Source: Kineococcus endophyticus (GTDB lineage: Bacteria > Actinomycetota > Actinomycetes > Actinomycetales > Kineococcaceae). From it: DNA of 64,000 bases. The notes beneath the pieces were generated by a model. That model had not been told where the DNA came from, searched no databases, and saw only the letters and a list, made by a program, of their open reading frames with translations. A program made the translations under genes and the position numbers. Of the stretch, positions 51,497 through 64,000 are shown one piece after another. Each line of letters begins with the position of its first letter. Within the stretch, counting starts at the first letter, position 1. The stretch lies in NCBI RefSeq assembly GCF_040796495.1, contig NZ_JBFNQN010000001.1:186001-250000 (forward strand), read 5' to 3'.

Positions 51497-51884
51497 GACG
51501 AGTCGGCCGGGCGACCGCGTCGACCGGGTTCGCCCGGTCGCCGAGGAAAGTCCGGACTCCACAGGGCAGGGTGGTGGGCAACGCCCACCCGGCGTGAGCC
51601 GCGGGACAGTGCCACAGAAAGCAGACCGCCTCCCCGCACCGGGTCTCCCGGGACGGGGCGGTAAGGGTGAAACGGTGGTGCAAGAGACCACCAGCGTGCT
51701 GGGTGACCAGTGCGGCTAGGCAAACCCCACCCGGAGCAAGACCAGACAGGCAGCGTTCGAGGGCGGCCCGCCCGAGCTGCCGGGTAGGTCGCTTGAGGCG
51801 TGCGGCAACGCACGTCCTAGAGGGATGGTCGCCACCGCCGGCAACGGCGGTACAGGATCCGGCTTACAGGCCGGCTCGTCCCCT
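51497..51884 (+). ncRNA. rnpB: RNase P RNA, bacterial class A
   Basis: About 388 bases. P1 pairs 51499-51508 (CGAGTCGGCC) perfectly with 51869-51878 (one G-U). The conserved P4 strands are GAGGAAAGTCCGGACTCC near 51542 and ACAGGATCCGGCTTACAG near 51851; ACAGAAA (51614-51620) and the GTGCAAGAGACCACCAG region are also typical. It processes the 5' ends of tRNA precursors. TACGCT at 51484-51489 is the probable -10. Open frames through this region are not genes. The mobile element begins immediately after its 3' end. Confidence 0.96.
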
Positions 51885-51888
51885 TTCC

Positions 51889-51921
51889 GGCCTCTGACCA
51901 GCGGTGACGCGGTCAGAGGCC
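51889..51921. terminator. Hairpin shared by the rnpB end and the integrase stop
   Basis: GGCCTCTGACC and GGTCAGAGGCC are perfect 11-bp arms around an 11-base loop. The integrase stop codon (51913-51915) lies in the right arm. It can stop both rnpB and the convergent integrase transcript, and it marks the left junction of the element. Confidence 0.7.
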
Positions 51922-53028
51922 GTCTGCAGTCCGCAGAGAGTCCGCAGGAGCGCCGAGGACCTCGTCGATGGCGGACCGCGTTCGATCCTCCGAGTCCGGC
52001 CACAGGTGGCTGTAGGTGTCGAGCGTCTCGCTCGCGCTGGCGTGCCCGAGCCTGGCCTGGACCGTCTTGATCGACTCCCCGTGACGGATCAGCAGGCTCG
52101 CGTAGTAGTGCCGCAGGTGGTGGAACGTGAACGTCGTCGGCAGTCCAGCGGCCTTGATCGCCGGCCGCCACACCCGTGCCGAGAACGCTGTCCGCCGCAT
52201 CGGCTCCCCAGCCGTGTCACGGAAGACGTAGTCGTCGGACGGGTACACCCGCAGGTGCTCCGCCAGCGCCTCCACGACGACCTGGGGGAGGGGGATCGTC
52301 CGCACGCTCGCCGACGTCTTCGGTGGGGCCAGGAACGGCTCCCGACCCTGCACGGTGACGAGCTGTCGGTCCACCGTGAGCTGACGACGGAGGAAGTCGA
52401 CCCTGTCGACCGTCAGGCCCAGGCATTCCCCGTGCCGCATCCCCGTGCCGGCGGACAGCGTGACGAGTGCTCGCCAGGACGGGTCGATCGCTGTCTCGAG
52501 CGCACGCACCTGCTCCGTCGTCGGCGGCTGCACCTTCGCCCGGTGCACCTTCGGCAGCTTCGTCCCGGTGCACGGGTTCGCCACCACGCGGCGGTCGCGG
52601 ACGGCCGAGCGGAAGATGCCAGAGACGATGCCGTGCACGACGCCCACTGTCGACGGGCTCAGCGGAGCCCGCTCCTCCGATCCGGTCGCCAGCCGCTTCA
52701 CCCAGGACTGCACGTCGCTCGGCAGCACCGACGCCAACGGCCGGTCCCCGAGGACGGGGTAGGCGTGACGGCGGAGCATGGTCTCGGTGTGCGCCTGCGT
52801 CGTGGGGCGGTGCACCTGCGCGGCGCGCCACTGCTCCGCGTACTCCCTAAAGCTCACCTTCCCGGCGTTGGGGTCGACGTACTGCCCGGTTACCACGGAG
52901 GCGGTGACCTCGTCGAGCCACCGCTGGCCGTCCACCTTCCGGTCGAAGTGCCGCGCGTGCTCCTTGCCGCCCGCGTCCCGGTACCGGGCGCGCCAGCGGC
53001 CGTCAGGTCTCTTCTTGATGCTCGCCAC
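51913..53028 (-). CDS. int: Tyrosine-recombinase integrase
   Basis: 371 residues. The N-terminus 'VASIKKRPDGRWRARYRDAGGKEHARHF' is the usual arm-type DNA-binding domain of actinobacterial integrases, followed by a core-binding domain (~60-150). Catalytic residues: Arg in 'GTGMRHGECLGL', HxxR in 'HHLRHYYASLLI', His in 'LGHASASETLD' and the nucleophile Tyr in 'TYSHLW'. GTG 53028 is preferred over 53082 because it gives the standard N-terminus. It is convergent with rnpB, and the attachment site is expected at the rnpB 3' end. Confidence 0.93.
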   Translation of the reverse strand: MASIKKRPDGRWRARYRDAGGKEHARHFDRKVDGQRWLDEVTASVVTGQYVDPNAGKVSFREYAEQWRAAQVHRPTTQAHTETMLRRHAYPVLGDRPLASVLPSDVQSWVKRLATGSEERAPLSPSTVGVVHGIVSGIFRSAVRDRRVVANPCTGTKLPKVHRAKVQPPTTEQVRALETAIDPSWRALVTLSAGTGMRHGECLGLTVDRVDFLRRQLTVDRQLVTVQGREPFLAPPKTSASVRTIPLPQVVVEALAEHLRVYPSDDYVFRDTAGEPMRRTAFSARVWRPAIKAAGLPTTFTFHHLRHYYASLLIRHGESIKTVQARLGHASASETLDTYSHLWPDSEDRTRSAIDEVLGAPADSLRTADGL

Positions 53029-53494
53029 GTGTCCCGTCCTCGTCTTGAAGTAGCCGAGCCGCTGCTCGCGTAACCGCGTCAACCGCCGGCGAGATCAGCA
53101 GGTTGTCGAACATGGCCAACCTCGTCATCTCCGCGTCCAGATCCGCGATGTGGGCTTCAAAGAGCGCCATGGTCTTAACGTGCTCTTGCCTTCTGTCGCT
53201 GAGGTCCTCCAGCACCTTCTGTCGCGACTTCTCCACGTCGATGAAGAGGGGCCAGACGGGTACCTGCAGCGTTAGCGATAGCGCGATCGCCTCTGCAAGG
53301 CGGATGGGGCGCCGCTCATCGTCGTCTCGTTCCATCTTCGCGATGGATGACTGATGCATCGACACGCCCTCGTCCTCCGTGAGTCGGCGAGCGAGCTCAC
53401 GTTGCGACCATCCGAGCTCCTCGCGCCGCTTCCGGCACATCTGCGCGAAGCGTGCCTCCATCTCGAACACGTCAGCACCCGTCTGATTCTCCAC
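53003..53494 (-). CDS. XRE-type phage repressor
   Basis: 163 residues from GTG 53494. The HTH is 'RKRREELGWSQRELARRLTEDEGVSMHQSSIAKMERD', then 'RPIRLAEAIALSLTLQVPVWPLF', and a C-terminal coiled coil ('QKVLEDLSDRRQEHVKTMALFEAHIADLDAEMTRL') likely for oligomerisation. A -35 TTGACT, 17-base spacer, -10 CAGTGT and 7 bases to the GTG give a leaderless start. It overlaps the integrase by 26 bases and is co-transcribed with it, so repressor and integrase are made together in the integrated state. Confidence 0.85.
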   Translation of the reverse strand: MENQTGADVFEMEARFAQMCRKRREELGWSQRELARRLTEDEGVSMHQSSIAKMERDDDERRPIRLAEAIALSLTLQVPVWPLFIDVEKSRQKVLEDLSDRRQEHVKTMALFEAHIADLDAEMTRLAMFDNLLISPAVDAVTRAAARLLQDEDGTRGEHQEET

Positions 53495-53497
53495 GTG

Positions 53498-53548
53498 GTC
53501 AACACTGCCGCACACTGGCTTGACAGTCAACGTGACTGCGCCCATTCT
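53498..53548. promoter_or_regulatory. Divergent promoter switch with shared palindrome
   Basis: TTGACAGTCAA (53520-53530) is a perfect 5-1-5 palindrome. Read rightward its first half is a -35 (TTGACA), 17 bases from CATTCT (53543-53548); read leftward its other half is a -35 (TTGACT), 17 bases from CAGTGT (53507-53502). A third half-site GTCAA lies at 53498-53502. Repressor bound here would cover both promoters. Confidence 0.7.
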
Positions 53549-53585
53549 CGTTGTAGGCACCCCTGCCTACGAGGAGGATCGCAAG

Positions 53586-53777
53586 ATGGATGACTGGCTC
53601 ACCACTGCAGAGACCAGCGCGCTTACTCGCGTCGCCGAGGGCACGCTCCGCTACTACAAGCACATCGGATCGGGCCCGCGCTGCTACAAGGTCGGCAGGC
53701 GCCTCCTCTACAAGCGCTCGGACGTCCTCACCTGGATGGAGTCTCAGGCCGTCGAGCCGCGCACGGCGGCCTCCTGA
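53586..53777 (+). CDS. xis: Excisionase-like HTH protein
   Basis: 63 residues, MerR-like winged helix: 'MDDWLTTAETSALTRVAEGTLRYYKHIGSGPRCYKVGRRLLYKRSDVLTWM'. This is the HTH_17/excisionase layout (TLRYY recognition helix, RLLYKRSDV wing). ATG 53586 has GAGGAGG 8 bases upstream. First gene on the rightward transcript, directly opposite the repressor; probably directs excision. Confidence 0.85.
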   Translation: MDDWLTTAETSALTRVAEGTLRYYKHIGSGPRCYKVGRRLLYKRSDVLTWMESQAVEPRTAAS

Positions 53778-54529
53778 TGACCGCGGAGACCCTCCCGGGC
53801 GGCGTCTCGCCGCTGTCGGAGGCCGACGCCCGCCGCATCGACAACCGCATCCGCATCCTGGCCCCCAGCGTGGGAGAAAGCCTGGCCAAGCTCATGCGCC
53901 TCGTAGATGAGGCCGAGCAGGGGCAGGTGCATGTTGTTCTGGGCTTCCCGTCCTGGACCGCCTATCTCGCGGACGCCCTCAGTCAGTTCCACCTCGCGGT
54001 CGAGCCGGCTATGCGTAAGGAGCTCGTCCCCCAGCTCGCGGAGAAGGGAATGCCCACCCGCGCCATCGCGCACAGCCTCGGCGTGTCCCAGACGACGGTG
54101 GTGAACGACCTGCGCGCTGCGACTGAACAGGAAGTGTTCAGTCGCCCGGCCACGGTGGTGAGCCTTGACGGTCGCCAGCGCCCCGCGTCACAGCCCGCCC
54201 GAGCGTCCGCGGCCGACGAGCTCCGCGAGTTCGAAGCCGGACTGGCCCCGCGGAACAGCCCAACGCAGTACCTCGACGACCGTGAGCATCAGTCGACGGC
54301 TGGAACCTCCACTGCCACTCGCCGCCGGCCCGACATCACCAAGCGGTTCCTCAACCTCGCCGTGGACTTGCGTCGCCTACAGACGAGCCTGCAGAACCTC
54401 CACGACGACGACCGGTACAGCAAGCACAAGGACGACCAGCGTGGTCTGCAGTTTGCCGTCCGACAGATGCTGCAGTTGCTGACTGAGCTCGAGGCCGAGT
54501 TCCCTCCGGAGGCCCACCTTGCCCGATGA
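53777..54529 (+). CDS. HTH-containing early protein
   Basis: 250 residues. N-terminal half: 'EADARRIDNRIRILAPSVGESLAKLMRLVDEAEQGQVHVVLGFPSWTAYLADAL', then a helix-turn-helix 'GMPTRAIAHSLGVSQTTVVNDLRA'. The pattern is common in actinobacterial phages and conjugative elements; a regulatory or partition-like role is plausible but unproven. The C-terminal 'DITKRFLNLAVDLRRLQTSLQNL' is helical. Its start abuts the xis stop. Confidence 0.7.
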   Translation: MTAETLPGGVSPLSEADARRIDNRIRILAPSVGESLAKLMRLVDEAEQGQVHVVLGFPSWTAYLADALSQFHLAVEPAMRKELVPQLAEKGMPTRAIAHSLGVSQTTVVNDLRAATEQEVFSRPATVVSLDGRQRPASQPARASAADELREFEAGLAPRNSPTQYLDDREHQSTAGTSTATRRRPDITKRFLNLAVDLRRLQTSLQNLHDDDRYSKHKDDQRGLQFAVRQMLQLLTELEAEFPPEAHLAR

Positions 54530-54803
54530 GACGCGACAGGGCGGCCCTGCTGACTACAGGACCGCCCCCAGCACGTCGCTCACCGACCCGACCAGCATGC
54601 CACTCGGACTGACGCCCACGCGAGAGGTTCTCGCCGCCGTCAGCAACATTTTCGTCGTCGCCGTCCGTGTCGACGGTGACCACCTTCGACGCCGGATCTA
54701 CCTGAGCCTGTCGGCCGCCCAGCGCGCCGCCGAGCGCGCGGAGGCCCGCGGGAAGACGGCCGACATCATCCTGTGCAAGGTCACGCCGGTGGTGACCCGA
54801 TGA
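54519..54803 (+). CDS. Small element protein
   Basis: 94 residues, beginning at TTG 54519 with GGAGG 6 bases upstream. 'TREVLAAVSNIFVVAVRVDGDHLRRRIYLSLSAAQRAAERAEARGKTADIILCKVTPV' suggests a small alpha/beta protein. No family recognised. It overlaps both neighbours by a few bases, as in the rest of this tightly packed operon. Confidence 0.6.
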   Translation: MPDETRQGGPADYRTAPSTSLTDPTSMPLGLTPTREVLAAVSNIFVVAVRVDGDHLRRRIYLSLSAAQRAAERAEARGKTADIILCKVTPVVTR

Positions 54804-55645
54804 CCTGGGTGAAGCTGGACGACCGCTGGACCGACGAGCCGATGATTCAGCAGCTCTCGTTCCAGAGCCGCTGGCACTACCTCGGGATGCTGTCCTGGTG
54901 CTGTCGAATGGACCAGTACGACGGCATTATGCGCAGCGTCGACGCCTGGCGCGCCAGCGACGTCGATGACCCAATGAAGGCGATCCAGGAGCTGCGCGAC
55001 GTCGGGCTGCTCGAGCCCACCGGGGACAGCAGCATCCGGCTGACGCAAATCGATCGGCACGCGCTGCCGCCGTACCTCAGGGACGCGAACCGCAAGGCCG
55101 CCAGCCGGGAGACCACCAAGAAGTGGCGCCAGCGTCAGCAGAACGACAGTGACGACTCGGGTGACATGTCACTTCCCGAGGATGGTGACGAGTCACTTTC
55201 TCGTCACAGCGGGGTCGGGGTCGGGGTCGGGACGGGAACTGCTCTTACGTCTTCCGATGAGACTTCTAGTGACGACAGCAGGGAGGTCAGCCGCAACCTC
55301 CGGTCGCGGGCGCGAGACGTGCCCGACGACATTCCGCCGGGGGAGACCCGAAATCCCGTGGGCACCCACTCCCGCATCAAGGACCGCGCCTGCCGCCTGG
55401 TCGCCGACGTCCTCGGCAAGAAGACCAACGACGTGCGCAAGCTCGTCAACTGGGGCGACGACGACCTCAGCAACAAGCTCGACGGCCTGATCGAAGAAGT
55501 ACTTCGTCCCGCACTCGTCGCCGGCCAGTCCGACACGACCATCAAGGCAGCCCTCCGGAAGGCCCGCGACGAGAACGGCGACATCACCGAGGCCTGGGAG
55601 TACCTCGAACCCCCGCACGTCGGCGACGGCGGCTGGACCACCTGA
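54800..55645 (+). CDS. Replication-initiation-like (replisome organiser-type) protein
   Basis: 281 residues. N-terminal ~90 residues 'MTWVKLDDRWTDEPMIQQLSFQSRWHYLGMLSWC...AIQELRDVGLLEPTGDSSIRLTQ' form a winged-helix-like domain similar to phage replisome-organiser proteins. A low-complexity Ser/Asp/Gly linker follows ('SGVGVGVGTGTAL', encoded by a short GTCGGG repeat near 55210). The C-terminal part 'SRIKDRACRLVADVLGKKTNDVRKLVNWG' is helical. Function is inferred by architecture only. Confidence 0.6.
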   Translation: MTWVKLDDRWTDEPMIQQLSFQSRWHYLGMLSWCCRMDQYDGIMRSVDAWRASDVDDPMKAIQELRDVGLLEPTGDSSIRLTQIDRHALPPYLRDANRKAASRETTKKWRQRQQNDSDDSGDMSLPEDGDESLSRHSGVGVGVGTGTALTSSDETSSDDSREVSRNLRSRARDVPDDIPPGETRNPVGTHSRIKDRACRLVADVLGKKTNDVRKLVNWGDDDLSNKLDGLIEEVLRPALVAGQSDTTIKAALRKARDENGDITEAWEYLEPPHVGDGGWTT

Positions 55646-55659
55646 GCGAAGGGGACACG

Positions 55660-56001
55660 ATGACCGAGACCGACGGCAACCCGAAGGCCGTGCAGGCACC
55701 CACGTTCCTCACCTGGCTGCAGTACGAGCGGACCCGCCACCGCGCCGACGACGTCGGCTGGATCGCCGGCCACGTCACCACCGACCACGCGGGCGGGTGC
55801 CTCACCGCAACGTCGCCGGCCGCGTTACGACACCACCTCATCAGCGACCACCCCGCCAACCACGAACCACAGCAGCGAGTACTGCGGGCCCTCGACCGCG
55901 CCGAAACCGCCTACGCCCGCAACCTCCAGCAACTGCAAGCAGCCTGCCGACACACCCGCCGAACGTTCATCCCCGCCGACCAGGAGGAACTCGGTTGCTG
56001 A
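55660..56001 (+). CDS. YozE-SAM-like small protein
   Basis: 113 residues. 'APTFLTWLQYERTRHRADDVGWIAGHVTTD' resembles the YozE/SAM-like fold (F-x2-W/F-L-x2-Q-R-x3-D-x-V/I-G). The middle 'SPAALRHHLISDHPANHEPQQRVLRALDRAETAYARNLQQLQAA' is helical. Seen in phage early regions; function unknown. Its stop overlaps the WhiB start region. Confidence 0.6.
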   Translation: MTETDGNPKAVQAPTFLTWLQYERTRHRADDVGWIAGHVTTDHAGGCLTATSPAALRHHLISDHPANHEPQQRVLRALDRAETAYARNLQQLQAACRHTRRTFIPADQEELGC

Positions 56002-56285
56002 ACGTCCCAGATCACGCGCTGCCCGCCTACCGCCTGCTGCTCCAAGCCCTCGCCGGCGTCGCGCCACCGTGCGCGGCGAACCCGGACGCCTGGACCGACC
56101 TGGACCCCCACAACCACGACGATCGTGGGAGAGCCGCCCGGGCGTGCTTCACCTGCCCCGCCTTGATCCCTTGCGGGCGCTACGCCACCCAAGCCGGGGA
56201 ACAGTCCGGCGTGTGGGGTGGCACCGATCGAACTCCCGTTCGCGGCCGACACAAGACCCCCACTACCGAGGAGGCCGCAGCATGA
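55995..56285 (+). CDS. WhiB-family iron-sulfur regulator
   Basis: 96 residues from TTG 55995, with AGGAGG 7 bases upstream. The four cluster Cys are in 'GVAPPCAANPDAW' and 'RACFTCPALIPCGRYA' (C...CxxC...C), followed by the WhiB turn 'SGVWGGTDR'. WhiB proteins bind a 4Fe-4S cluster and sigma factor; phage copies (such as the TM4 phage protein) can alter host WhiB function. The basic 'RGRHK' tail is short, so DNA binding may be weak. Confidence 0.85.
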   Translation: MLNVPDHALPAYRLLLQALAGVAPPCAANPDAWTDLDPHNHDDRGRAARACFTCPALIPCGRYATQAGEQSGVWGGTDRTPVRGRHKTPTTEEAAA

Positions 56286-56590
56286 CCACCCGCGACAACT
56301 GGGCAGAGCTGTCCGAAGTCGCCACCCTCGTCGCCCTCGCCCTCGAGGCCGACGAAGGCCACCGGCTCGACACCCTCGGGGCGATCATCGTCCCCCTCGT
56401 CGAACGAGGTGACGCCGCAACCCTGGCCCACATGCTCAGCCGCGCCATCACCCTGGCCGAACTGCTCGTCACCAAGGAGATGGACACCCGCATCGACGCG
56501 GACCTCAACCCCAGCACCGGCCCCGTCCTCGGCTACCTCCTCAGCCTCTCCGCCGAAGCTGGGAAGCGCGCCGCGCGAGGTGAGCAGTGA
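56282..56590 (+). CDS. Small helical element protein
   Basis: 102 residues: 'TTRDNWAELSEVATLVALALEADEGHRLDTLGAIIVPLVERGDAATLAHMLSRAITLAELLV'. Entirely helical, no known domain. Start overlaps the WhiB stop (ATGA), so it is coupled to it. Confidence 0.6.
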   Translation: MTTRDNWAELSEVATLVALALEADEGHRLDTLGAIIVPLVERGDAATLAHMLSRAITLAELLVTKEMDTRIDADLNPSTGPVLGYLLSLSAEAGKRAARGEQ

Positions 56591-56711
56591 CGCGCCCGGT
56601 AGGGGGTTCCGATCGCCAGGAGCCGCGAGGGGTGAACACCGCCGGGGTGGTGTTCTGTCCCTCCCCCGGACGGCTAGGGGGGGTCGCGCGCGCGAGGGAC
56701 GGGTGGGTCCG

Positions 56712-57080
56712 ATGAGCGGCCGCGATGATCTTCTGGACCTCGCTGCCCAGCTGGTGGCGGGGCAGGTCGAGGAGTCCGCGCTGTTGGCGGACGTCATCGT
56801 GTCCTTGTCAGTCGACGAGCTCCGCCTGTTGGTAGGACTTGTTTCGACAGGTCGAGCTGATGCAGCTGCATCGGAGGGAGGGGTGAGGGTTCAGGCGGAG
56901 GTGTTGGTGGCGCGTGGCCGGGACCTCGTCGTGAAGTGCCCGTGGTGCGCGGCGCATCATCGTCACCTTCGCGGGCATTCTCGGTCGGGGTGGCAGAACC
57001 GGACTCCGCCGTGCGGTCGGGCGCTCTCCGCGGAGCAACGTGCGGCCGGCTACTGGTTCCTGGACGACGGTCGGTCGTGA
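56712..57080 (+). CDS. Small protein with zinc-finger-like C-terminus
   Basis: 122 residues. A helical N-terminal half ('LLDLAAQLVAGQVEESALLADVIVSLSVDELRLLVGL') is joined to 'LVVKCPWCAAHHRHLRGHSRSGWQNRTPPCG', where CPWC, HxH and a last Cys could bind zinc. Function unknown. Last gene before the 347-base gap. A poly-G/Arg-rich stretch of 121 bases separates it from the preceding gene. Confidence 0.6.
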   Translation: MSGRDDLLDLAAQLVAGQVEESALLADVIVSLSVDELRLLVGLVSTGRADAAASEGGVRVQAEVLVARGRDLVVKCPWCAAHHRHLRGHSRSGWQNRTPPCGRALSAEQRAAGYWFLDDGRS

Positions 57081-57427
57081 CTGATTCGCGGAGTGTCGAC
57101 TGCCTGTTCAGAGGGTCCTTCCGGTAGAATCCGCAGTGACGGGAAACGCTCCCGGGCCAAGTCGACGAGGATCCGCAAGGACAAGTTGACGAGGAGCCCC
57201 AGGGTGGGTCGCGTCGGATCCGATGGTTCCGTCGTGGTGACGGGAAGCTCGGTTCTTCGTTCGCAGCAGTTGCCGGGCCAGCGGTAATCCCGGCCGTTAG
57301 GACAGCAGTCAGGTCTGACGGCATCGGTCGAACCCGTCCGCGCGTGTGACGCCGCGAAACTTCATCGTTCGCCGCTGCACGCCCATAGGCGTTGCCGGCT
57401 CCCCCTCATTCGCCCATGGAGGGCACC
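57081..57427. other. 347-base gap between early and capsid genes, with direct repeats
   Basis: No convincing gene. CAAGTCGACGAGGA (57158-57171) and CAAGTTGACGAGGA (57182-57195) repeat with a 24-base period and one mismatch; GTGACGGGAA occurs at 57136-57145 and 57237-57246. TAGAAT at 57125-57130 is the best -10 in the region and could start the late transcript. The terminase-portal-protease block normally sits here. Confidence 0.6.
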
Positions 57428-58648
57428 ATGAACCTGCAGCAAAAGCGAGCCGCCGCGTACCAGGCCGCACTGGCCATCGTCGACGGAGCCAAGGCCGAGG
57501 GCCGCGACCTCACCCCCAGCGAGGTGAGCCGGCTCGAAGCGCACACCGAGGAGGTCCGCATCCACGACGCCGAGATCGCCCGCATCGGGAAGTCCTCGGC
57601 GCTCATCAACTCCCTCGGCCAGCTGGGCTCGAGCGAGTCCACTCCGAGCACCTTCGGCGCGAAGTCCCTGGGGGAGCACTTCGTGAAGGCTGCCGGCTCC
57701 CGCCTCGCGACCGCTAAGTCCACGGAGGGTCGCTTCTCGATCGCCGCGCCGGAGTTCAAGGCTGCCAGCGACGTGCACACGGTCGGAAGCGTCACGGCTC
57801 CTGCCACGACGACGGTCGACACCAACGTCGTCACCGGCTTCCGCCGCTTCCTGCAGGTCGCTGACCTGCTGGCCCAGGGGCAGCTGTCCGGGAATGCCAT
57901 CAGCTACTTCGTGGAGGGCGCGCGTGAGGGGAACTTCACGACGGTGGCGGAGGGCGCGAAGAAGCCGCAGCTGCACTACGCGGACCCGACGGCCGTCACC
58001 GAGTCCCTGAAGAAGATCGCCGGCTTCATCAAGGAGTCCGACGAGATGGTGGAGGATCTTGACTTCCTCGCTTCCGCCATCAACCAGCGCCTCCTGTACG
58101 ACCTGGCCCTGTTCGAGGAGGACCAGCTGCTGTCCGGGTCCGGCTCGGGCACGAACCTGCTGGGCCTGCTGAACCGCTCCGGAATCCAGACGATGGGCGC
58201 CACCACGGACTCCAAGACTGGCAACGCGGACCAGATCTTCAAGGCCATGACCGCCATCCGGACGGTCGCGGCTCTGCGGGCCGACGGCGTCGTCATCAAC
58301 CCGCTGGACTACCAGGCGTTCCGGCTGACGAAGGACGGCAACGGCCAGTACTACGGCGGCGGCTTCTTCGCCGGCCAGTACGGCAACGGGACGCTGCAGG
58401 AGGACCCGCCGCTGTGGTCGGTGCGCACGGTCGTCACCCCCGCCATCGCGCAGGGCACGGTGCTGGTGGGCGCCTTCCAGCAGGCGGCGACGCTGTACCG
58501 CAAGGGCGGTGTGCGGGTGGAAGCGACGAACTCCAACGAGGCCGACTTCACCGAGAACAAGATCACGATCCGGGCAGAGGAGCGGGTGGCGCTGGCCGTG
58601 CGCCGTCCCGCCGGCCTGGTCAAGGTCACCCTCGGCACCGCCAACTGA
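57428..58648 (+). CDS. HK97-type major capsid protein
   Basis: 406 residues, intact. Residues 1-60 form a short helical scaffold (delta) domain ('QQKRAAAYQAALAIVDGAK', 'RLEAHTEEVRIHDAEIARIG'). The rest has the gp5 fold: 'SYFVEGAREGNFTTVAEGAKKPQ', 'KKIAGFIKESDEMVEDLDFLASAINQRLLYDLALFEEDQLLSGSG' and the C-terminal 'RVEATNSNEADFTENKITIRAEERVALAVRRPAGLVKV'. GGAGG lies 5 bases before ATG 57428. HK97-type capsids need a protease, portal and terminase, none of which is encoded upstream here. Confidence 0.92.
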   Translation: MNLQQKRAAAYQAALAIVDGAKAEGRDLTPSEVSRLEAHTEEVRIHDAEIARIGKSSALINSLGQLGSSESTPSTFGAKSLGEHFVKAAGSRLATAKSTEGRFSIAAPEFKAASDVHTVGSVTAPATTTVDTNVVTGFRRFLQVADLLAQGQLSGNAISYFVEGAREGNFTTVAEGAKKPQLHYADPTAVTESLKKIAGFIKESDEMVEDLDFLASAINQRLLYDLALFEEDQLLSGSGSGTNLLGLLNRSGIQTMGATTDSKTGNADQIFKAMTAIRTVAALRADGVVINPLDYQAFRLTKDGNGQYYGGGFFAGQYGNGTLQEDPPLWSVRTVVTPAIAQGTVLVGAFQQAATLYRKGGVRVEATNSNEADFTENKITIRAEERVALAVRRPAGLVKVTLGTAN

Positions 58649-58734
58649 GTCACGCGACAAGCACCATGGGGGATCACTTCGCGTGGTTCCCCATGGGCCA
58701 CGCCCATCCACTGACTCCGCCGAGGGGACCCGAC

Positions 58735-59103
58735 ATGACCAAGATCGAACACCCCGAACTTTTCGCCTTCGCCGTCGCCCTGCTCGAGCAGGCTGTCCAG
58801 GGCAACCACGCCGGCTCCGACGAGGGCCTGGAGCACCACGACCAAGTGCAGCTCGGCATCTTCGGTGTTCTGGGGGAGATGCCGGAGGACACCGAGCACA
58901 ACGTCCGCAGTGTCCTGCTCTACCTCACCCGGATCGCCGCGCAGGGACTGCGCCACGCCGAGGCCATCGAGCCGCGCTTCGACGCCCGTCTGTGGCTGCG
59001 GTCCCTGGCGCCTCAGCTCGCCGCCATCGAGGCGCTCGCCCACCTGCAGTTGGCTGACGAGCCCGACCCGCGCGGCGACGGCGACGAACCGAAGGAGTCC
59101 TGA
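58735..59103 (+). CDS. Small helical protein between capsid and tape measure
   Basis: 122 residues: 'EHPELFAFAVALLEQAVQGNHAGSDEGLEHHDQVQLGIFGVLGEMPEDTEHNVRSVLLYLTRIAAQGLRHAEA' and an acidic tail. Not recognised. By position it could be a tail assembly chaperone, but it lacks any visible slippery frameshift site. Its stop overlaps the tape measure start. Confidence 0.6.
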   Translation: MTKIEHPELFAFAVALLEQAVQGNHAGSDEGLEHHDQVQLGIFGVLGEMPEDTEHNVRSVLLYLTRIAAQGLRHAEAIEPRFDARLWLRSLAPQLAAIEALAHLQLADEPDPRGDGDEPKES

Positions 59104-62100
59104 TGGCCGGGAACGCTGTCGTCGCCGGGACGATCGAGTACCTGATCGGTGTCGACGACACCGCACTCATCCGCGGTCTGCAGCAGGCCGCCGGCAAGGT
59201 CTCCCAGCAGGGCCGATCGCAGGGGGACGCCTTCGGGCGGTCCCTGAACCAGGGACTGACCGGGCAGCTGCAGACGGTGCAGGCGCAGGTTCGCCAGCAG
59301 CTCAGCCGGGCACTGGCGAACCTGCCCACGGTGGAACTGAACGCCGACTCCTCCGACGTGGACAAGGCTCTGGCCGAGGTACGGACCACGATGACGTCGC
59401 TGTCCGGGCAGGACTTGCGGTTGGGCGCCGACACGAGCGAGGCGACCGGTCAGCTGGGGGAGCTGCGCAGTCAGCTGCAGCGCATCGCCGCCGAGCACCC
59501 GGAGGTCGAGGTCCGCGCCTCCGCCGCGCAGGCCACGCAGGAGCTCGGGGCGGTGGAGTCCGCCGCCCGGCACCTGGACGGTCTGCGCGCCGAGATCGAG
59601 GCCCGCGCCGACACCTCCTCGGCTGAGGCCGCCCTGCGCCGCCTGAGCGAGTCCGGCGGCCGGGTCGACGTGGACGTCGACGCGGACACCTCCGCGGCCG
59701 AGGACCGCATCGGCGGCCTGGGTGAGGGTGCCGGCGGCGCGGCCGGGGAACGCATCGGCGGGGACGTCGTCGGTGGCATCACCGGCAAGCTGGGGGTGCT
59801 CGGCGCCGTCGGTGGCCCTGTCGCTGGGGTCCTCGTCGGCGCCGGCGTCGGTCTGGGCGCCCTGTTCGTGAAGGCCATCTCCGATGGGATGGACCAGCGC
59901 GCCGACAACGCCCTGTTCCAGGCCCGCACCGGCCTGGACGACGCCACCGTGGCCAAGTACGCGACCGCGGCGGGGGAGTCCTACGCCTCCAACTTCGGGG
60001 ACTCCCTCTCGGCGAACCTCGAGATCGCCCGCTCGGCGCTGAACACGGGCCTGCTGGGCGGTGACTCCACCTCCGCGCAGATCCAGACGGTCACCAACCA
60101 GCTCGACACGGTCGCGACGCTGCTGGGGGTGGACATCCCCGAAGTCGCCCGCGCCGCCGGGCAGGCCGTGCGCACCGGCCTGGTGAAGGACACCACGCAG
60201 GGCCTGGACCTCATCGCCCGCGCCAGCCAGCTCGGCCTGAACGTGTCCGAGGACCTCCTCGACACCATCACCGAGTACGGCACCCAGTTCCGCCGCGCCG
60301 GCATCGACGGCCAGACCGCCATGGGCCTGATCTCCCAGCTCGTCAAGGGCGGCGCCCGAGACACCGACCTCGCCGCAGACGCGGTGAAGGAGTTCGTCCT
60401 GCGCCTGTCCGACGTCACCAACACCGGCGCGCAGGACGCGCTGACGTCGCTGGGCCTGAACGCCGAGGAGGTGTCCCGCCAGTTCCTGGCCGGCGGGGAC
60501 TCCGCCGACTCAGCCATGCAGCGGGTGGTGCAGGCCATCACCTCGGTCGAGGACCCGGTGGTCCGCAACACCGCGCTGATCAACCTGTTCGGCACCCAGG
60601 CTGAGGACCTCGGTGGGGCCATCAACGCCCTGGACCTGTCCAAGGCCCGGGGTGAGTTCGCTGGGTTCGACGGGACCGTGCAGCGGGCCATGGACACCCT
60701 TGGCTCGACCACCCAGGCCAAGATCGAGACCGCCAAGCGGGGCATCGAGACCGCCACCAACGGGATCAAGGTCGCGCTCGCGGACGCCTTCGCCCCGCAG
60801 ATCGCTGGGGCGGCGGACTGGATCACCACCCACCGAGGGGAGGTGACCCAGTTCCTGTTCACCGTCGGCAACGGGCTGCTGGACCTGGCACGTTCGGCGG
60901 TGGAGACGGCCGCGACGTCGACGGAGGCGTTCGGCCGGTTCGTGGGGACCACCGGCCCGCAGGTGCTGGACATGATCCGCTCGATCATCGCCGGCATGGA
61001 CTCTATCCCGCTGGTGGACCTGAGCGACACCCTCACCCAGTTCGACGCGATGAGCGCTCAGGCCAAGGCGTCGTTCTCCACGGTGGAGTCCTCCACGGCC
61101 GCTGCGGCCGACAAGATCCGCTCCACCGCGATCCCCGCGATCGACGGGGTCCAGGAGCGGTTCAGCGCCCTGGAGATCCCCGCCGTCACGCAGGCCCGGT
61201 TCGCCGACGCCACCAACGCCCTGTCGTTCGGGCTGGCGGGCGTCTCGGACAAGGCCGAGGAGACCCGCGGATCCCTGGACACCGCCGCCGGGACCATCGA
61301 CCGCACTACCGACGCCGGGAAGACCCTGGACGGGCAGCTGCGGACGGTCTCCGCCTCACTGCTGGACCAGGCCGTCCAAGGGGCTGCGCTGGGGCAGACG
61401 CAGGAGGAGCTCACCGGACGCTTCAACGAGGGCCGGGACGCGCTGATCGGGCAGCTGCAGCAGCTCGGGCTCACCCGGGACGCCGCGGAGAAGCTCGCCG
61501 CGCAGTACGGCCTGGTGCCCGGGAAGGTCGACACGATCGTCTCTGACGCCGGCACGGCCGCGTCGGTCAAGGCGGAGGTGGAGCGCCTGAACGGGGAGAT
61601 CGGGCGGGTGCAGGACCGCACCGTCACGATCACCGCGCGCCTCGCCCTCGGATCCTCCGCGGGCAAGACGTCGAACGGCTGGTCCGGTGGGACGGTCGCG
61701 AAGGCCATGGGCGGCTCGGTCCACGGACCCGGCTCCGGCACCTCCGACGACATCCCGGCGTGGCTGTCCAACGGCGAGCACGTCTGGACCGACGCTGAGG
61801 TCCGTGCCGCGGGCGGGCACGAGCGGGTGAAGAACCTGCGCCGCGCGGCCTTGTCTGGGGAGCTCCCAGCGTTCGCGCAGGGCGGGCCGGTGGGTGACAA
61901 CCTGCGGGTCGACATGACTGACCCCGGCGCCTTCCAGCAGTCCGCCGGCTCCGCATGGGACCAGCTCCTCGGCGCGGCGCAGTCCGCGGCTGACTCCGCT
62001 GCCCGCGCCGCTCAGGCCGCCGACGAAGCGGGCGGCGCGACTGCCGGCCCGCCGTCTGGGACGGGTTCGGGGTGGGCGTGGCAGGTTGCCACCATCAAGA

Positions 62101-62627
62101 AGGCGTTCCCGAACATCGCCATCACCTCGACCACCCGGCCGGGCGCGAAGACGGTGTCCGGCAACACCTCGTACCACGCCCGCGGGCGCGCCATCGACAT
62201 GTCCCCGTCGATGGCGGCGTTCAACTGGATCGCCCAGAACTTCCCGAACACCGCTGAGCTGATCTTCTCCCCGGCGGGGGCGCGGCAGTTGAAGAACGGC
62301 CGCTCCCACATCTACTCGGGCGCGGTGAAGGCGATGCACTACAACCACGTCCACTGGGCCTACGACCAGGGCGGTTTGGCGGAGGGGGCCGGCTACCTGC
62401 CGAAGCTCACTCCCAAGCCGGAGCGGGTGCTGTCCCCGCAGCAGACGAAGGACTTCGGTCGCCTCGTCGACGCCCTGACCGCAGGCCAGATCGGCGCAGG
62501 GGGTGGCAAGACCGTCCAGGTCACCAACCACAACCAGTACCAGCTGATGGACGACGCCCAGATCGCCCTGCTGGCCCGTCAGGAGGCGCTGGAGATGGCC
62601 GGGTACCTCGGCATGGCGGGCATCTGA
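59103..62627 (+). CDS. Tail tape measure protein with C-terminal peptidase-like domain
   Basis: 1174 residues. N-terminal ~200 residues carry repeats of the 'VELNADSSDVDKALAEV / LRLGADTSEATGQLGEL / AEIEARADTSSAEAAL / VDVDADTSAAEDRI' type. A hydrophobic Gly/Ala/Val segment (~215-260) and long helices follow. Near residues 1020-1085 'TSYHARGRAIDMSP' and 'MHYNHVHWAYD' supply the H-x6-D and H-x-H metal ligands of M15/VanY-like peptidases, which would cut peptidoglycan during DNA entry. 'GGSVHGPGSGTSDDIPAWLSNGEHVW' is a common tape-measure C-terminal motif. The protein sets tail length in siphophages. Confidence 0.93.
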   Translation: MAGNAVVAGTIEYLIGVDDTALIRGLQQAAGKVSQQGRSQGDAFGRSLNQGLTGQLQTVQAQVRQQLSRALANLPTVELNADSSDVDKALAEVRTTMTSLSGQDLRLGADTSEATGQLGELRSQLQRIAAEHPEVEVRASAAQATQELGAVESAARHLDGLRAEIEARADTSSAEAALRRLSESGGRVDVDVDADTSAAEDRIGGLGEGAGGAAGERIGGDVVGGITGKLGVLGAVGGPVAGVLVGAGVGLGALFVKAISDGMDQRADNALFQARTGLDDATVAKYATAAGESYASNFGDSLSANLEIARSALNTGLLGGDSTSAQIQTVTNQLDTVATLLGVDIPEVARAAGQAVRTGLVKDTTQGLDLIARASQLGLNVSEDLLDTITEYGTQFRRAGIDGQTAMGLISQLVKGGARDTDLAADAVKEFVLRLSDVTNTGAQDALTSLGLNAEEVSRQFLAGGDSADSAMQRVVQAITSVEDPVVRNTALINLFGTQAEDLGGAINALDLSKARGEFAGFDGTVQRAMDTLGSTTQAKIETAKRGIETATNGIKVALADAFAPQIAGAADWITTHRGEVTQFLFTVGNGLLDLARSAVETAATSTEAFGRFVGTTGPQVLDMIRSIIAGMDSIPLVDLSDTLTQFDAMSAQAKASFSTVESSTAAAADKIRSTAIPAIDGVQERFSALEIPAVTQARFADATNALSFGLAGVSDKAEETRGSLDTAAGTIDRTTDAGKTLDGQLRTVSASLLDQAVQGAALGQTQEELTGRFNEGRDALIGQLQQLGLTRDAAEKLAAQYGLVPGKVDTIVSDAGTAASVKAEVERLNGEIGRVQDRTVTITARLALGSSAGKTSNGWSGGTVAKAMGGSVHGPGSGTSDDIPAWLSNGEHVWTDAEVRAAGGHERVKNLRRAALSGELPAFAQGGPVGDNLRVDMTDPGAFQQSAGSAWDQLLGAAQSAADSAARAAQAADEAGGATAGPPSGTGSGWAWQVATIKKAFPNIAITSTTRPGAKTVSGNTSYHARGRAIDMSPSMAAFNWIAQNFPNTAELIFSPAGARQLKNGRSHIYSGAVKAMHYNHVHWAYDQGGLAEGAGYLPKLTPKPERVLSPQQTKDFGRLVDALTAGQIGAGGGKTVQVTNHNQYQLMDDAQIALLARQEALEMAGYLGMAGI

Positions 62628-62695
62628 TGCCGGCCCGCCATGCCGGCCCGACGTCGGCGTGGCGGGCACCACGGGCTCTGGCTAGCCTGCGCGCC

Positions 62696-63133
62696 ATGAC
62701 GCGCTCCACAGCAGACCCCGCCCTCGTCGCCCTCGTGCGCACAGCCCAGGAGCAGGACTTTCCTGCGGCCGTCACGCTGGTAACCGCCGGCGGCACGGTC
62801 AGCGGTGCACTCATCGGCCGTGATGAGTGGGTCGGCAAGTTCTTCGAGCGCTCCGACGCTGGTGAGGGCAGCGAGCCGATCCTTGACGCCCTGCGAGAAG
62901 CCTTCGCCGCCGAGGACACCGCTGGCGGGCCGGATGAACCCATCCAGTACGCCTTCATCCACCTCGAGGGTGCTCGCGTCCACGGCCACGGGCCGGACCT
63001 GGAGAACCCCGAGCCCGACGGTCTGCGGGCCCTGTGGCGTGGCCGGGTCGATCAGGTCGTGGGCTGGTCCATCGGGTCCCCGTCCGGGCCGCCGACCGAG
63101 CAGGAACCGGTCTTCGACAGCTTCCTGGACTGA
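62696..63133 (+). CDS. Accessory (moron-like) hypothetical protein
   Basis: 145 residues. Strands 'AVTLVTAGGTVSGALIGRDEWVGKFF' suggest a small beta-barrel (Sm-like) fold; the C-terminal part is acidic. TAGCCT at 62683-62688 lies 7 bases before ATG 62696, so it has its own leaderless promoter, and a strong terminator follows. Such independent units inside phage late regions are often expressed in the lysogen. Function unknown. Confidence 0.65.
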   Translation: MTRSTADPALVALVRTAQEQDFPAAVTLVTAGGTVSGALIGRDEWVGKFFERSDAGEGSEPILDALREAFAAEDTAGGPDEPIQYAFIHLEGARVHGHGPDLENPEPDGLRALWRGRVDQVVGWSIGSPSGPPTEQEPVFDSFLD

Positions 63134-63184
63134 CCGACCAGCAGGAGTAGCGTTGTGGCTGTCCCTCGGGTCAGGGCGTAGTTA

Positions 63185-63215
63185 GAGGGGGTCGGCGCCG
63201 AGCGCCGACCCCCTC
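63185..63215. terminator. Strong terminator after the late/accessory genes
   Basis: GAGGGGGTCGGCG and CGCCGACCCCCTC are perfect 13-bp arms around a 5-base loop. It ends the rightward transcripts and faces the leftward GNAT gene. Confidence 0.85.
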
Positions 63216-63302
63216 GTCATTCCACGCTCGCCACGAACGGCGACGGCACCCCCGCCCCCTGCACAGAGCGAGGGTGGGGGGGGCAATCGCTTGCCTGCGA
63301 CA

Positions 63303-63824
63303 TCAAGCGACGTAGAAGTCCCTGCTGTATGCCACGTGTCCGTCGGGGAGATCCTGGTCGTCGACTGCTACGAAGCGCATCCGCTCAAGTGCTGTGATCA
63401 TGTCAAGGTTGGTGGCCCGCACGAACCCGGTGACCGAGACGGCAGGCGCCCCGGCCGACAGTGCGTTCACGCCAGCAAACTCCGTGACCCCCTCAATGAG
63501 GGCTCCAGCTACACCTTGCTGCCGATGCGTGAGTGCGACCCCCAGAGCAGGCATGAAGACCTCAGAGGGGTCACCGCGAGTCCGCCAGAGCGCCGCACCG
63601 ACGATGGCGCCGGAGGTATCGTCGACTGCGACAACACGGCTCTCCCCAGGCCAGAGTTGAGGCGCCTTCAGCAGCGACTGGGCCTGGTACTCCCACTCGC
63701 GGCCGTCCCAGTAGACGTAGCGCTTCTGGGTGCGGTGGTATTTTCGGGGCGGCGTGCAGGTGAAGCCCTCAAGTGCGACCCGGTCCGTCTTGCGGTACTC
63801 CCGGACGGTCCAGTCGCGGCTCAC
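63303..63824 (-). CDS. GNAT-family N-acetyltransferase
   Basis: 173 residues from GTG 63824. Acetyl-CoA-binding motif region 'MPALGVALTHRQQGVAGALIEGVTEFAG' (Q-x-x-G-x-A/G loop as RQQGVAG), then 'TGFVRATNLDMITALERMRFV', typical of motif B. N-terminal 'WTVREYRKTDRVALEGFTCTPPRKYHRTQKRYVYW' may bind substrate. The target is unknown. It lies leftward after the terminator, so it is an accessory gene; GTG 63902 is an alternative start overlapping the next gene. Confidence 0.75.
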   Translation of the reverse strand: MSRDWTVREYRKTDRVALEGFTCTPPRKYHRTQKRYVYWDGREWEYQAQSLLKAPQLWPGESRVVAVDDTSGAIVGAALWRTRGDPSEVFMPALGVALTHRQQGVAGALIEGVTEFAGVNALSAGAPAVSVTGFVRATNLDMITALERMRFVAVDDQDLPDGHVAYSRDFYVA

Positions 63825-63858
63825 AGCGAGGGCCGCGGTCGTCTTCGACCGCTGGCCT

Positions 63859-64000
63859 TCACCGGAAGCAGGCCTGAAGCGCCCTGACGGTCTGGCGCCC
63901 ACGCTGGCCGTCGTAAGCCGCCAGGTTGCGCTCGAACAGCTCCCGCGCGCGGGCGGCAGCGAGCGCCTCGCCGTAGGGACCCTCCGGGCCCTCCGACTCG
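63859..64000 (-). CDS. C-terminal fragment of an unknown protein
   Basis: 46 residues are visible and the start is beyond the right edge. 'EALAAARARELFERNLAAYDGQRGRQTVRALQACFR' is helical and charged. Not recognised. It stops 34 bases before the GNAT start, so the two probably form a leftward operon. Confidence 0.5.
   Translation of the reverse strand, partial: ESEGPEGPYGEALAAARARELFERNLAAYDGQRGRQTVRALQACFR

Follow-up and report, generated by a model that had tools for sequence, protein, structure and literature searches.

A small integrated element of Kineococcus endophyticus with its own capsid and tape measure genes is probably a phage satellite

The phage-inducible chromosomal island-like elements (PLEs) of Vibrio cholerae are satellites that place their own tape measure in chimeric tails (PMC12987554). 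In virions of one of them, PLE11, the tape measure of the satellite was reported to be present and that of the helper phage absent, and deletion of tmp lowered transduction by ~99.9% (PMC12987554). According to the same source, as of March 2026 there was no report of a tape measure from any other satellite, and the legend of its Extended Data Fig. 10 mentions putative tmp genes in PLE-like elements and in capsid-forming phage-inducible chromosomal islands (PICIs) (PMC12987554). SaPIbov5 is described as a case in which a satellite-encoded capsid homologue can change the shell of the helper (PMC8569155), and the Streptomyces satellites MulchRoom and MiniFlayer are described as encoding terminase, portal, capsid, scaffold, and head-to-tail adaptor (PMC10690885). 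Many actinobacterial prophage elements of <15 kb could be satellites (PMC10023795), and the term ‘tape measure’ is absent from the main text of that paper. In the open-access literature, as assessed by title, start of the abstract, and term counts, no actinomycete satellite with a tape measure was recognisable. Here we describe an element that begins within a stretch of 64,000 nucleotides from Kineococcus endophyticus (‘the window’; bases 186001-250000 of a 469,523-base contig) and that carries a tape measure gene, a capsid gene, and no other recognised particle gene.

The element is bounded by perfect 28-bp direct repeats (TCCGGCTTACAGGCCGGCTCGTCCCCTT) that lie 16,495 bp apart, the left copy (attL) at 51858..51885 on the + strand and the right copy (attR) at 68353-68380 on the window scale. 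The latter is outside the window, in the sequence to its right (L005:4353-4380). The attachment site is the 3' end of the host rnpB gene for the RNase P RNA of bacterial class A (51499..51882, + strand; Rfam RF00010, E 5.8e-97, 297.3 bits), which is covered by the left repeat copy and stays intact. When aligned to rnpB of a genus relative (G003), identity covers 26 of the 28 repeat bases and ends there, and only 38 bp separate the repeat core of this relative from its homologue of L005:4998 onward, which is the first conserved gene to the right of the element. In a second genus relative (G010), the corresponding distance from the rnpB end and repeat core is 71 bp. These compact junctions suggest that the rnpB sites of both relatives look unoccupied. 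The G+C content of the element is 69.0%, compared to 74.4% in the left flank and 73.1% in the right flank. The base composition, the WhiB-like genes, and the actinophage relatives of the virion genes all point to an actinomycete host. With its integrase, regulator, and att repeats, the locus is a discrete integrative element, as is expected of a satellite in the broad sense. Between attR and the next conserved gene lies a further ~0.6 kb (L005:4381-4997) with a DUF732-like gene, for which there is no room at the compact G003 junction and which may be host sequence or an older insertion. The use of the rnpB 3' end for integration was noted from the window (51499-51885) together with locus L151. 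A literature search for rnpB as a prophage site yielded one paper, on a cyanophage.

Two genes for virion proteins are recognisable between these repeats, both on the + strand. The first encodes an HK97-fold major capsid protein of 406 residues (57428..58648; PF05065, E 1.9e-36; phrog_10, E 1e-64) and the second a tail tape measure protein of 1174 residues (59103..62627; PF10145, E 7.8e-22; phrog_9228, E 3.8e-39). A first-pass annotation, made from the letters of the window alone, had identified these two genes along with an integrase, a repressor, and an excisionase, and Pfam and PHROGs uphold all five calls. Its view of the structural genes as full length with clean junctions was likewise borne out: both are intact, the capsid ATG at 57428 is preceded by GGAGG five bases upstream, and the start of the tape measure gene shares base 59103 with the stop of the small gene ahead of it.

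The same annotation had remarked on the lack of terminase, portal, connector, and tail tube genes and had looked to the sequence beyond base 64000 for the right end. We screened the whole element in six frames with home-made profiles for terminase, portal, protease, capsid, connectors, tail tube, minor/distal tail, tape measure, and integrase, and these profiles, which are built from tens of sequences and which divergent genes can escape, matched only the capsid, tape measure, and integrase genes. Between the end of the tape measure gene and attR (62.6-68.4 kb), we recognised none of the genes for terminase, portal, protease, connector, tail tube, or minor tail, and a set of virion genes just right of base 64000 was rejected on the strength of the sequence up to attR and these scans. 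Pfam and PHROGs searches of most element genes (in the right arm, Pfam only for an acetyltransferase gene, with L005:3100-3357 and L005:3975-4175 left out) gave no further virion or lysis family. Beyond capsid and tape measure, the element consequently has no recognised gene for making a virion alone, where lysis is judged from the Pfam and PHROGs results for most genes only. A complete temperate phage was rejected on the same grounds, as no terminase, portal, or tail-tube gene was recognised between the att sites.

This arrangement is unusual among the 394 genomes of the host’s class that we surveyed. Capsid genes followed by a tape measure gene on one strand within ≤10 kb were found 12 times, and the profile matches of the pair are 1,355 bp apart in the window versus 3,538-6,735 bp in the other 11 pairs. 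Of 57 loci with a PF10145 match, the window locus alone combines a capsid with a tape measure and lacks a match to any other profiled gene.

When set against the described systems, the element is most likely a satellite whose gene composition is new although its kind is known. Like PLE1, PLE4, and PLE11 of V. cholerae, it is integrated, encodes its own tape measure, and would obtain most other tail parts from a helper (PMC12987554); for PLEs, the formation of chimeric tails is reported as demonstrated (PMC12987554). PLEs also differ in that they are described as encoding a chaperone, and PLE11 a baseplate hub in addition, and in having a contractile tail and another host (PMC12987554). Virions of PLE11 hold the capsid proteins of the helper (PMC12987554), whereas the element has a capsid gene of its own. 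In this respect it resembles SaPIbov5, in which a homologue of a phage capsid protein (Ccm) is likewise encoded by the satellite (PMC8569155). Ccm, as described, sits in pentamers of a shell of helper type (PMC8569155), whereas the capsid of the element can be aligned with phage capsids from end to end and is accompanied by a tape measure. Capsid-forming PICIs and MulchRoom/MiniFlayer share with the element a capsid gene of their own but are described as having terminase, portal, protease or scaffold, and connectors as well (PMC10690885), none of which was recognised here. Of the genes by which that source defines a capsid-forming PICI (capsid, protease, portal, connectors, and terminase), the element has the capsid only (PMC10690885).

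We propose, with a probability of roughly 60%, that the element is an integrated phage satellite whose own shell protein and ruler become part of the virion of a helper, and that it is probably still mobile. Since only two particle genes are recognisable, the other virion parts would need another virus, and we infer that they are borrowed from a helper phage. Upon infection by, or growth of, a helper in the cell, the element would excise and replicate, and its capsid protein would enter or build the shell; HK97-type capsids with an N-terminal scaffold domain are able to assemble alone. The protease, portal, and terminase of the helper would then process and fill this shell. The tail tube of the helper would polymerise on the tape measure of the element in place of the helper’s own. 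The helper would thus supply terminase, portal, protease, connectors, tail tube, tail tip, and lysis, and the outcome would be a chimeric particle in which a small genome is favoured over that of the helper. The virion content of PLE11 and the effect of its tmp deletion indicate that a tail swap of this kind is possible. Outside the element, the host genome has no other PF05065 capsid or PF10145 tape measure, no PF03354 terminase, and no PF04860 portal (other portal and terminase families were not searched), suggesting that a helper, if there is one, likely comes from outside the genome.

The relatives of the two virion genes bear on where they came from. The nearest capsid of a named phage is that of Arthrobacter phage Shoya (MN908684; 65.6% identity), followed by one viral contig at 64% (L009), seven genome loci at 44-57%, and five more viral contigs at 43-47%. 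The seven genome loci came from a profile scan of genome contigs with the capsid alignment, which recovered no sister element. All 14 of these loci, including those from the scan, have terminase, portal, and protease genes alongside the capsid gene. The region ahead of the capsid domain in the element’s protein also aligns with full phage capsids. The window capsid keeps 48 of the 49 columns that are invariant in the 14 relatives, which themselves change 0-6 and of which the nearest is 67% identical in this comparison, a count that cannot tell constraint before from constraint after a presumed loss of virion genes.

The tape measure has different relatives. Shoya, although it has the nearest named-phage capsid, is a complete phage of 37.8 kb with a tape measure that has no significant similarity to that of the element. 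At E 0.001, phmmer detected no match to the element’s tape measure at any of the 14 loci with related capsids. Ten of these loci have a recognised tape measure; L009 holds just the beginning of its own. On the tape measure tree, the element’s protein groups with those of Gordonia phage TinyDot, a viral contig (L016), Mycobacterium phage BigNuz, Rhodococcus phage Mbo4, the plasmid pDJL3, and an element in genome G199 (support 100). The capsid genes of TinyDot, BigNuz, and Mbo4 are shorter (930-978 bp), and TinyDot and Mbo4 carry an annotated scaffolding gene. Collectively, the capsid and the tape measure of the element are, as judged from their alignments and where this is testable, from different phage lineages.

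The explanation that comes closest to rivalling a satellite, although it is an unlikely one, is a decayed prophage, in which a complete mosaic temperate phage lost its terminase-to-protease, connector-to-chaperone, and minor-tail-to-lysis blocks and left two virion genes that are now idle. Cryptic prophages are described as common in actinobacteria (PMC10023795), each of the 14 capsid relatives belongs to a full phage module that includes terminase, portal, and protease, and the four Pfam families revealed no helper in the genome. Moreover, phages are mosaic, so a single ancestor could have combined the two lineages. The junctions, however, speak against decay. In the ~350-bp gap ahead of the capsid gene (57081..57427, + strand), blastx against 447 structural proteins revealed no recognisable remnant of a protease, portal, or terminase (best E 0.74); nor did the three gaps taken together (ahead of the capsid gene, between it and the small gene, and after the tape measure gene) yield a significant match to these proteins (best E 0.33). 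The block from minor tail to lysis that would follow the tape measure gene is missing as well, so that deletion would require at least three losses, each at gene borders and without a recognisable remnant. The att repeats and lysogeny genes are intact, the capsid is not visibly relaxed (by a test that is blind to constraint before versus after loss), and four other att-bounded elements, described below, also keep a tape measure without a virion block.

The first-pass annotation had left the choice between a satellite and a prophage cut by two internal deletions undecided. Its first alternative is favoured by the att boundaries, the intact genes, and the four similar elements, whereas the second is weakened by the missing remnants, the two lineages, and the third loss. 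The lack of recognisable junction remnants, the conserved capsid, and the apparent origin of capsid and tape measure in different lineages make a simple double deletion an unlikely explanation. Two cuts in a Shoya-like prophage were rejected as a full account, since the tape measure is not of the Shoya lineage. A close relative with the missing block in place, named by that annotation as counter-evidence, was not found; the capsids of full phages are ≤66% identical, and their tape measures are different where testable.

Less probable still is that the two virion genes are anti-phage cargo, such that capsid protein and tape measure made during infection would spoil the particles of the invader and shield the host rather than carry the element. 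Interference with tail assembly is known as a satellite defence from Rta of PLE11 (PMC12987554), and two further papers deal with interference in assembly (PMC11364771, PMC10884400). Rta, however, is described as a dedicated inhibitor and is no tape measure (PMC12987554). Furthermore, both genes lie in an element with a full integration module, and PADLOC, when applied to ten element proteins (capsid and tape measure not among them), identified no defence system; its matches were to helix-turn-helix (HTH) or regulator models only (Csa3, E 1.2e-3; CasR, E 8.7e-3; mad1, E 3.1e-7). That the pair are passengers, gained by recombination with phages and useless to the element, is improbable: two different phage lineages are involved and no whole relative allows the upkeep of the pair to be traced over time, but tape measures recur in small elements and the capsid residues are conserved.

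Several observations weigh against a satellite that uses its two virion proteins as proposed. No resident helper came to light with the four Pfam families, searches yielded no relative of the element as a whole, and neither a cos nor a pac site was identified. The capsid is of the type found in phages with a separate protease gene, and no such gene was recognised in the element. In three loci of full phages (L012-L014), a 51-residue tblastn match to the element’s tape measure was detected. The small gene directly ahead of the tape measure gene (58735..59103, + strand; 122 residues) lies where a tail assembly chaperone is expected and is a candidate for one by its position. Searches of 50,697 phage records at E 0.01, of the other genomes of the 394 at E 0.001, and of Pfam and PHROGs returned no match to it. 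Folded alone, it gave a low-confidence model of four helices (mean pLDDT 57.8), for which comparison with the PDB returned 75 matches at E up to 10 and 0 at E 0.001.

To these points is added the intermixing of satellite-like and phage tape measures on trees. In a tree of 29 rows, the five satellite-like rows need five changes, four of which are forced by strong branches, and in a tree of 19 rows the five need four changes. Clustering of the satellite-like and phage labels was no greater than in shuffles, where the ‘phage’ labels are unchecked for some partial loci. A satellite-only lineage for the element’s tape measure, with rows so mixed, is unsupported. The mixing also means that a tape measure by itself is no marker of a satellite, and, together with the lack of extra clustering, it suggests that tape measures may have been captured repeatedly from phages rather than inherited within one old satellite lineage.

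The survey of the host’s class with PF10145 allowed us to evaluate how common such loci might be. Of the 57 matches, one is that of the window; for each of the 56 other loci, ~20 kb of surrounding sequence (less at contig ends) was searched with the virion profiles. Fifteen of the 56 had no virion-profile match, of which three were set aside by hand: L087 (a contig of 4.8 kb), L134 (a long phage-like gene run), and L135 (a poor gene map). L130 was left out of the count on account of one distal-tail match. This leaves 12 of the 56 loci (L081, L117, L119, L122, L124, L128, L131, L136, L137, L141, L143, and L147), so that roughly a fifth of the PF10145 tape measures found in the class have no other recognised virion gene in their surroundings.

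In four of the 12, an integrase and a tape measure lie between repeats at tRNA genes: 48-bp repeats 14,300 bp apart in L117, 53-bp repeats 16,224 bp apart in L119, 37-bp repeats 16,318 bp apart in L122, and 21-bp repeats 9,622 bp apart in L124. The 56 other predicted proteins of these four elements (the shortest omitted) matched 11 Pfam families, mostly HTH, integrase, and AAA, with no virion family among them. The same proteins matched 52 PHROGs families; the 25 listed of the 52 include families of regulators, replication, integrase, and unknown function, and also head scaffolding family phrog_233, which one of the proteins matches at E 4.2e-10. L117 and L124 use a common tRNA-Val site and have tape measures that are 61% identical over 447 columns, but share 26% identity in their integrases. 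A tRNA-Arg (TCT) gene is predicted within the L122 element (L122:4718-4791).

The remaining loci differ from these in what they encode. The recognisable parts of L081 are an integrase, a primase, a WhiB-like gene, and the tape measure, for which the top PHROGs family is labelled endolysin and is followed by many tape measure families. L131, L136, L137, L141, L143, and L147 have replication genes (primase or helicase), with FtsK- or GntR-type genes in some, partly identified by eye; instead of being satellites, these loci may be elements of conjugative type. Since some of the 12 look partly conjugative (e.g., L131, with an FtsK-like gene), the 12 loci are not of one kind.

A tentative extension, which we consider possible but less probable than the reading of the element itself, is that actinomycetes hold a common and so far undescribed class of satellites in which a tape measure, taken repeatedly from phages, is the sole virion gene. 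The Kineococcus element would represent a further step, with its own shell protein setting the head, its own ruler setting the tail, and the rest borrowed. If some of the 12 loci do work as satellites, tail remodelling would extend beyond Vibrio as a more general strategy, and several separate elements would be available for testing why a parasite brings its own ruler.

Outside this count, we identified further small elements that encode a tape measure. Plasmid pDJL3 of Rhodococcus qingshengii (NZ_CP025962.1; L051) is circular, comprises 15,865 bp, and encodes an integrase, HTH proteins, a DnaB-N protein, a DUF7426 protein, a tape measure, and a terminase; its annotation lists no capsid, portal, or tail tube. 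Like the Kineococcus element it is a small integrase element with a tape measure (31.9% identity over 48% of the window’s), but it has its own terminase, a DUF7426 gene ahead of the tape measure gene, and no annotated capsid gene. One pDJL3 protein is similar to two that are encoded by the L119 element (40.5% over 79 residues and 32.7% over 150 residues). The pDJL3 tape measure pairs on the tree with that of Rhodococcus phage Mbo4, and Mbo4 represents a possible helper type. In the G199 element (L073), a serine-integrase-like gene was recognised by eye, and a tape measure gene lies ahead of genes for terminase, portal, protease, capsid, and a connector-like protein, with no tail-tube or minor-tail profile match; as a whole it is similar to a capsid-forming PICI that also encodes a tape measure. 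The 14.6-kb plasmid pVS14 of Vibrio scophthalmi (NZ_CP016311.1; L052) encodes an integrase and RepA, and a tape measure is its sole annotated virion gene.

The other genes of the Kineococcus element comprise an integration and early region to the left of the capsid gene and an accessory region to the right of the tape measure gene. On the - strand are a tyrosine integrase (51913..53082; PF00589, E 4.5e-26; phrog_1, E 2e-76) and an HTH repressor (53003..53560; PF01381, E 3.9e-7; phrog_3, E 8.4e-8). The + strand then encodes an excisionase-like HTH protein (53520..53777, likely start 53586; PF12728; phrog_66), followed by an early-operon HTH/ParB-like protein (53777..54529; phrog_29861 of unknown function, E 1.3e-23; phrog_2159, E 1.7e-3), which has relatives in six phage records, and by a replication-initiator-like protein (54800..55645), which matched phrog_2447 weakly (E 3e-4) and had no match in the phage records. 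Further along the + strand are a WhiB-like regulator (55995..56285; phrog_9926, E 5.4e-14) and two small early genes without a significant match (56282-56590 and 56712-57080; span 56282..57080). The repeats in the gap between these and the capsid gene are short ones only. To the right of the tape measure gene lies an accessory gene on the + strand (62627..63133, likely start 62696) with no assignment in Pfam or PHROGs and a mean pLDDT of 49.9 when folded, and then a GNAT-type acetyltransferase gene on the - strand (63303..63902; PF00583, E 2.7e-4). The right arm starts at 63903..64000 and goes on past the window to attR as L005:1-4352. It contains small genes, including one for an excisionase-like HTH protein (L005:1998-2987; phrog_1840) and one that appears HTH-like by eye (L005:3100-3357). 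WhiB-like genes recur in elements with a tape measure, being present in the window (55995-56285), in L081 (L081:9059-9400), and in L131 (L131:6411-6710), and in the latter two, as seen by eye from the sequence in L131, the WhiB-like gene directly adjoins the tape measure gene.

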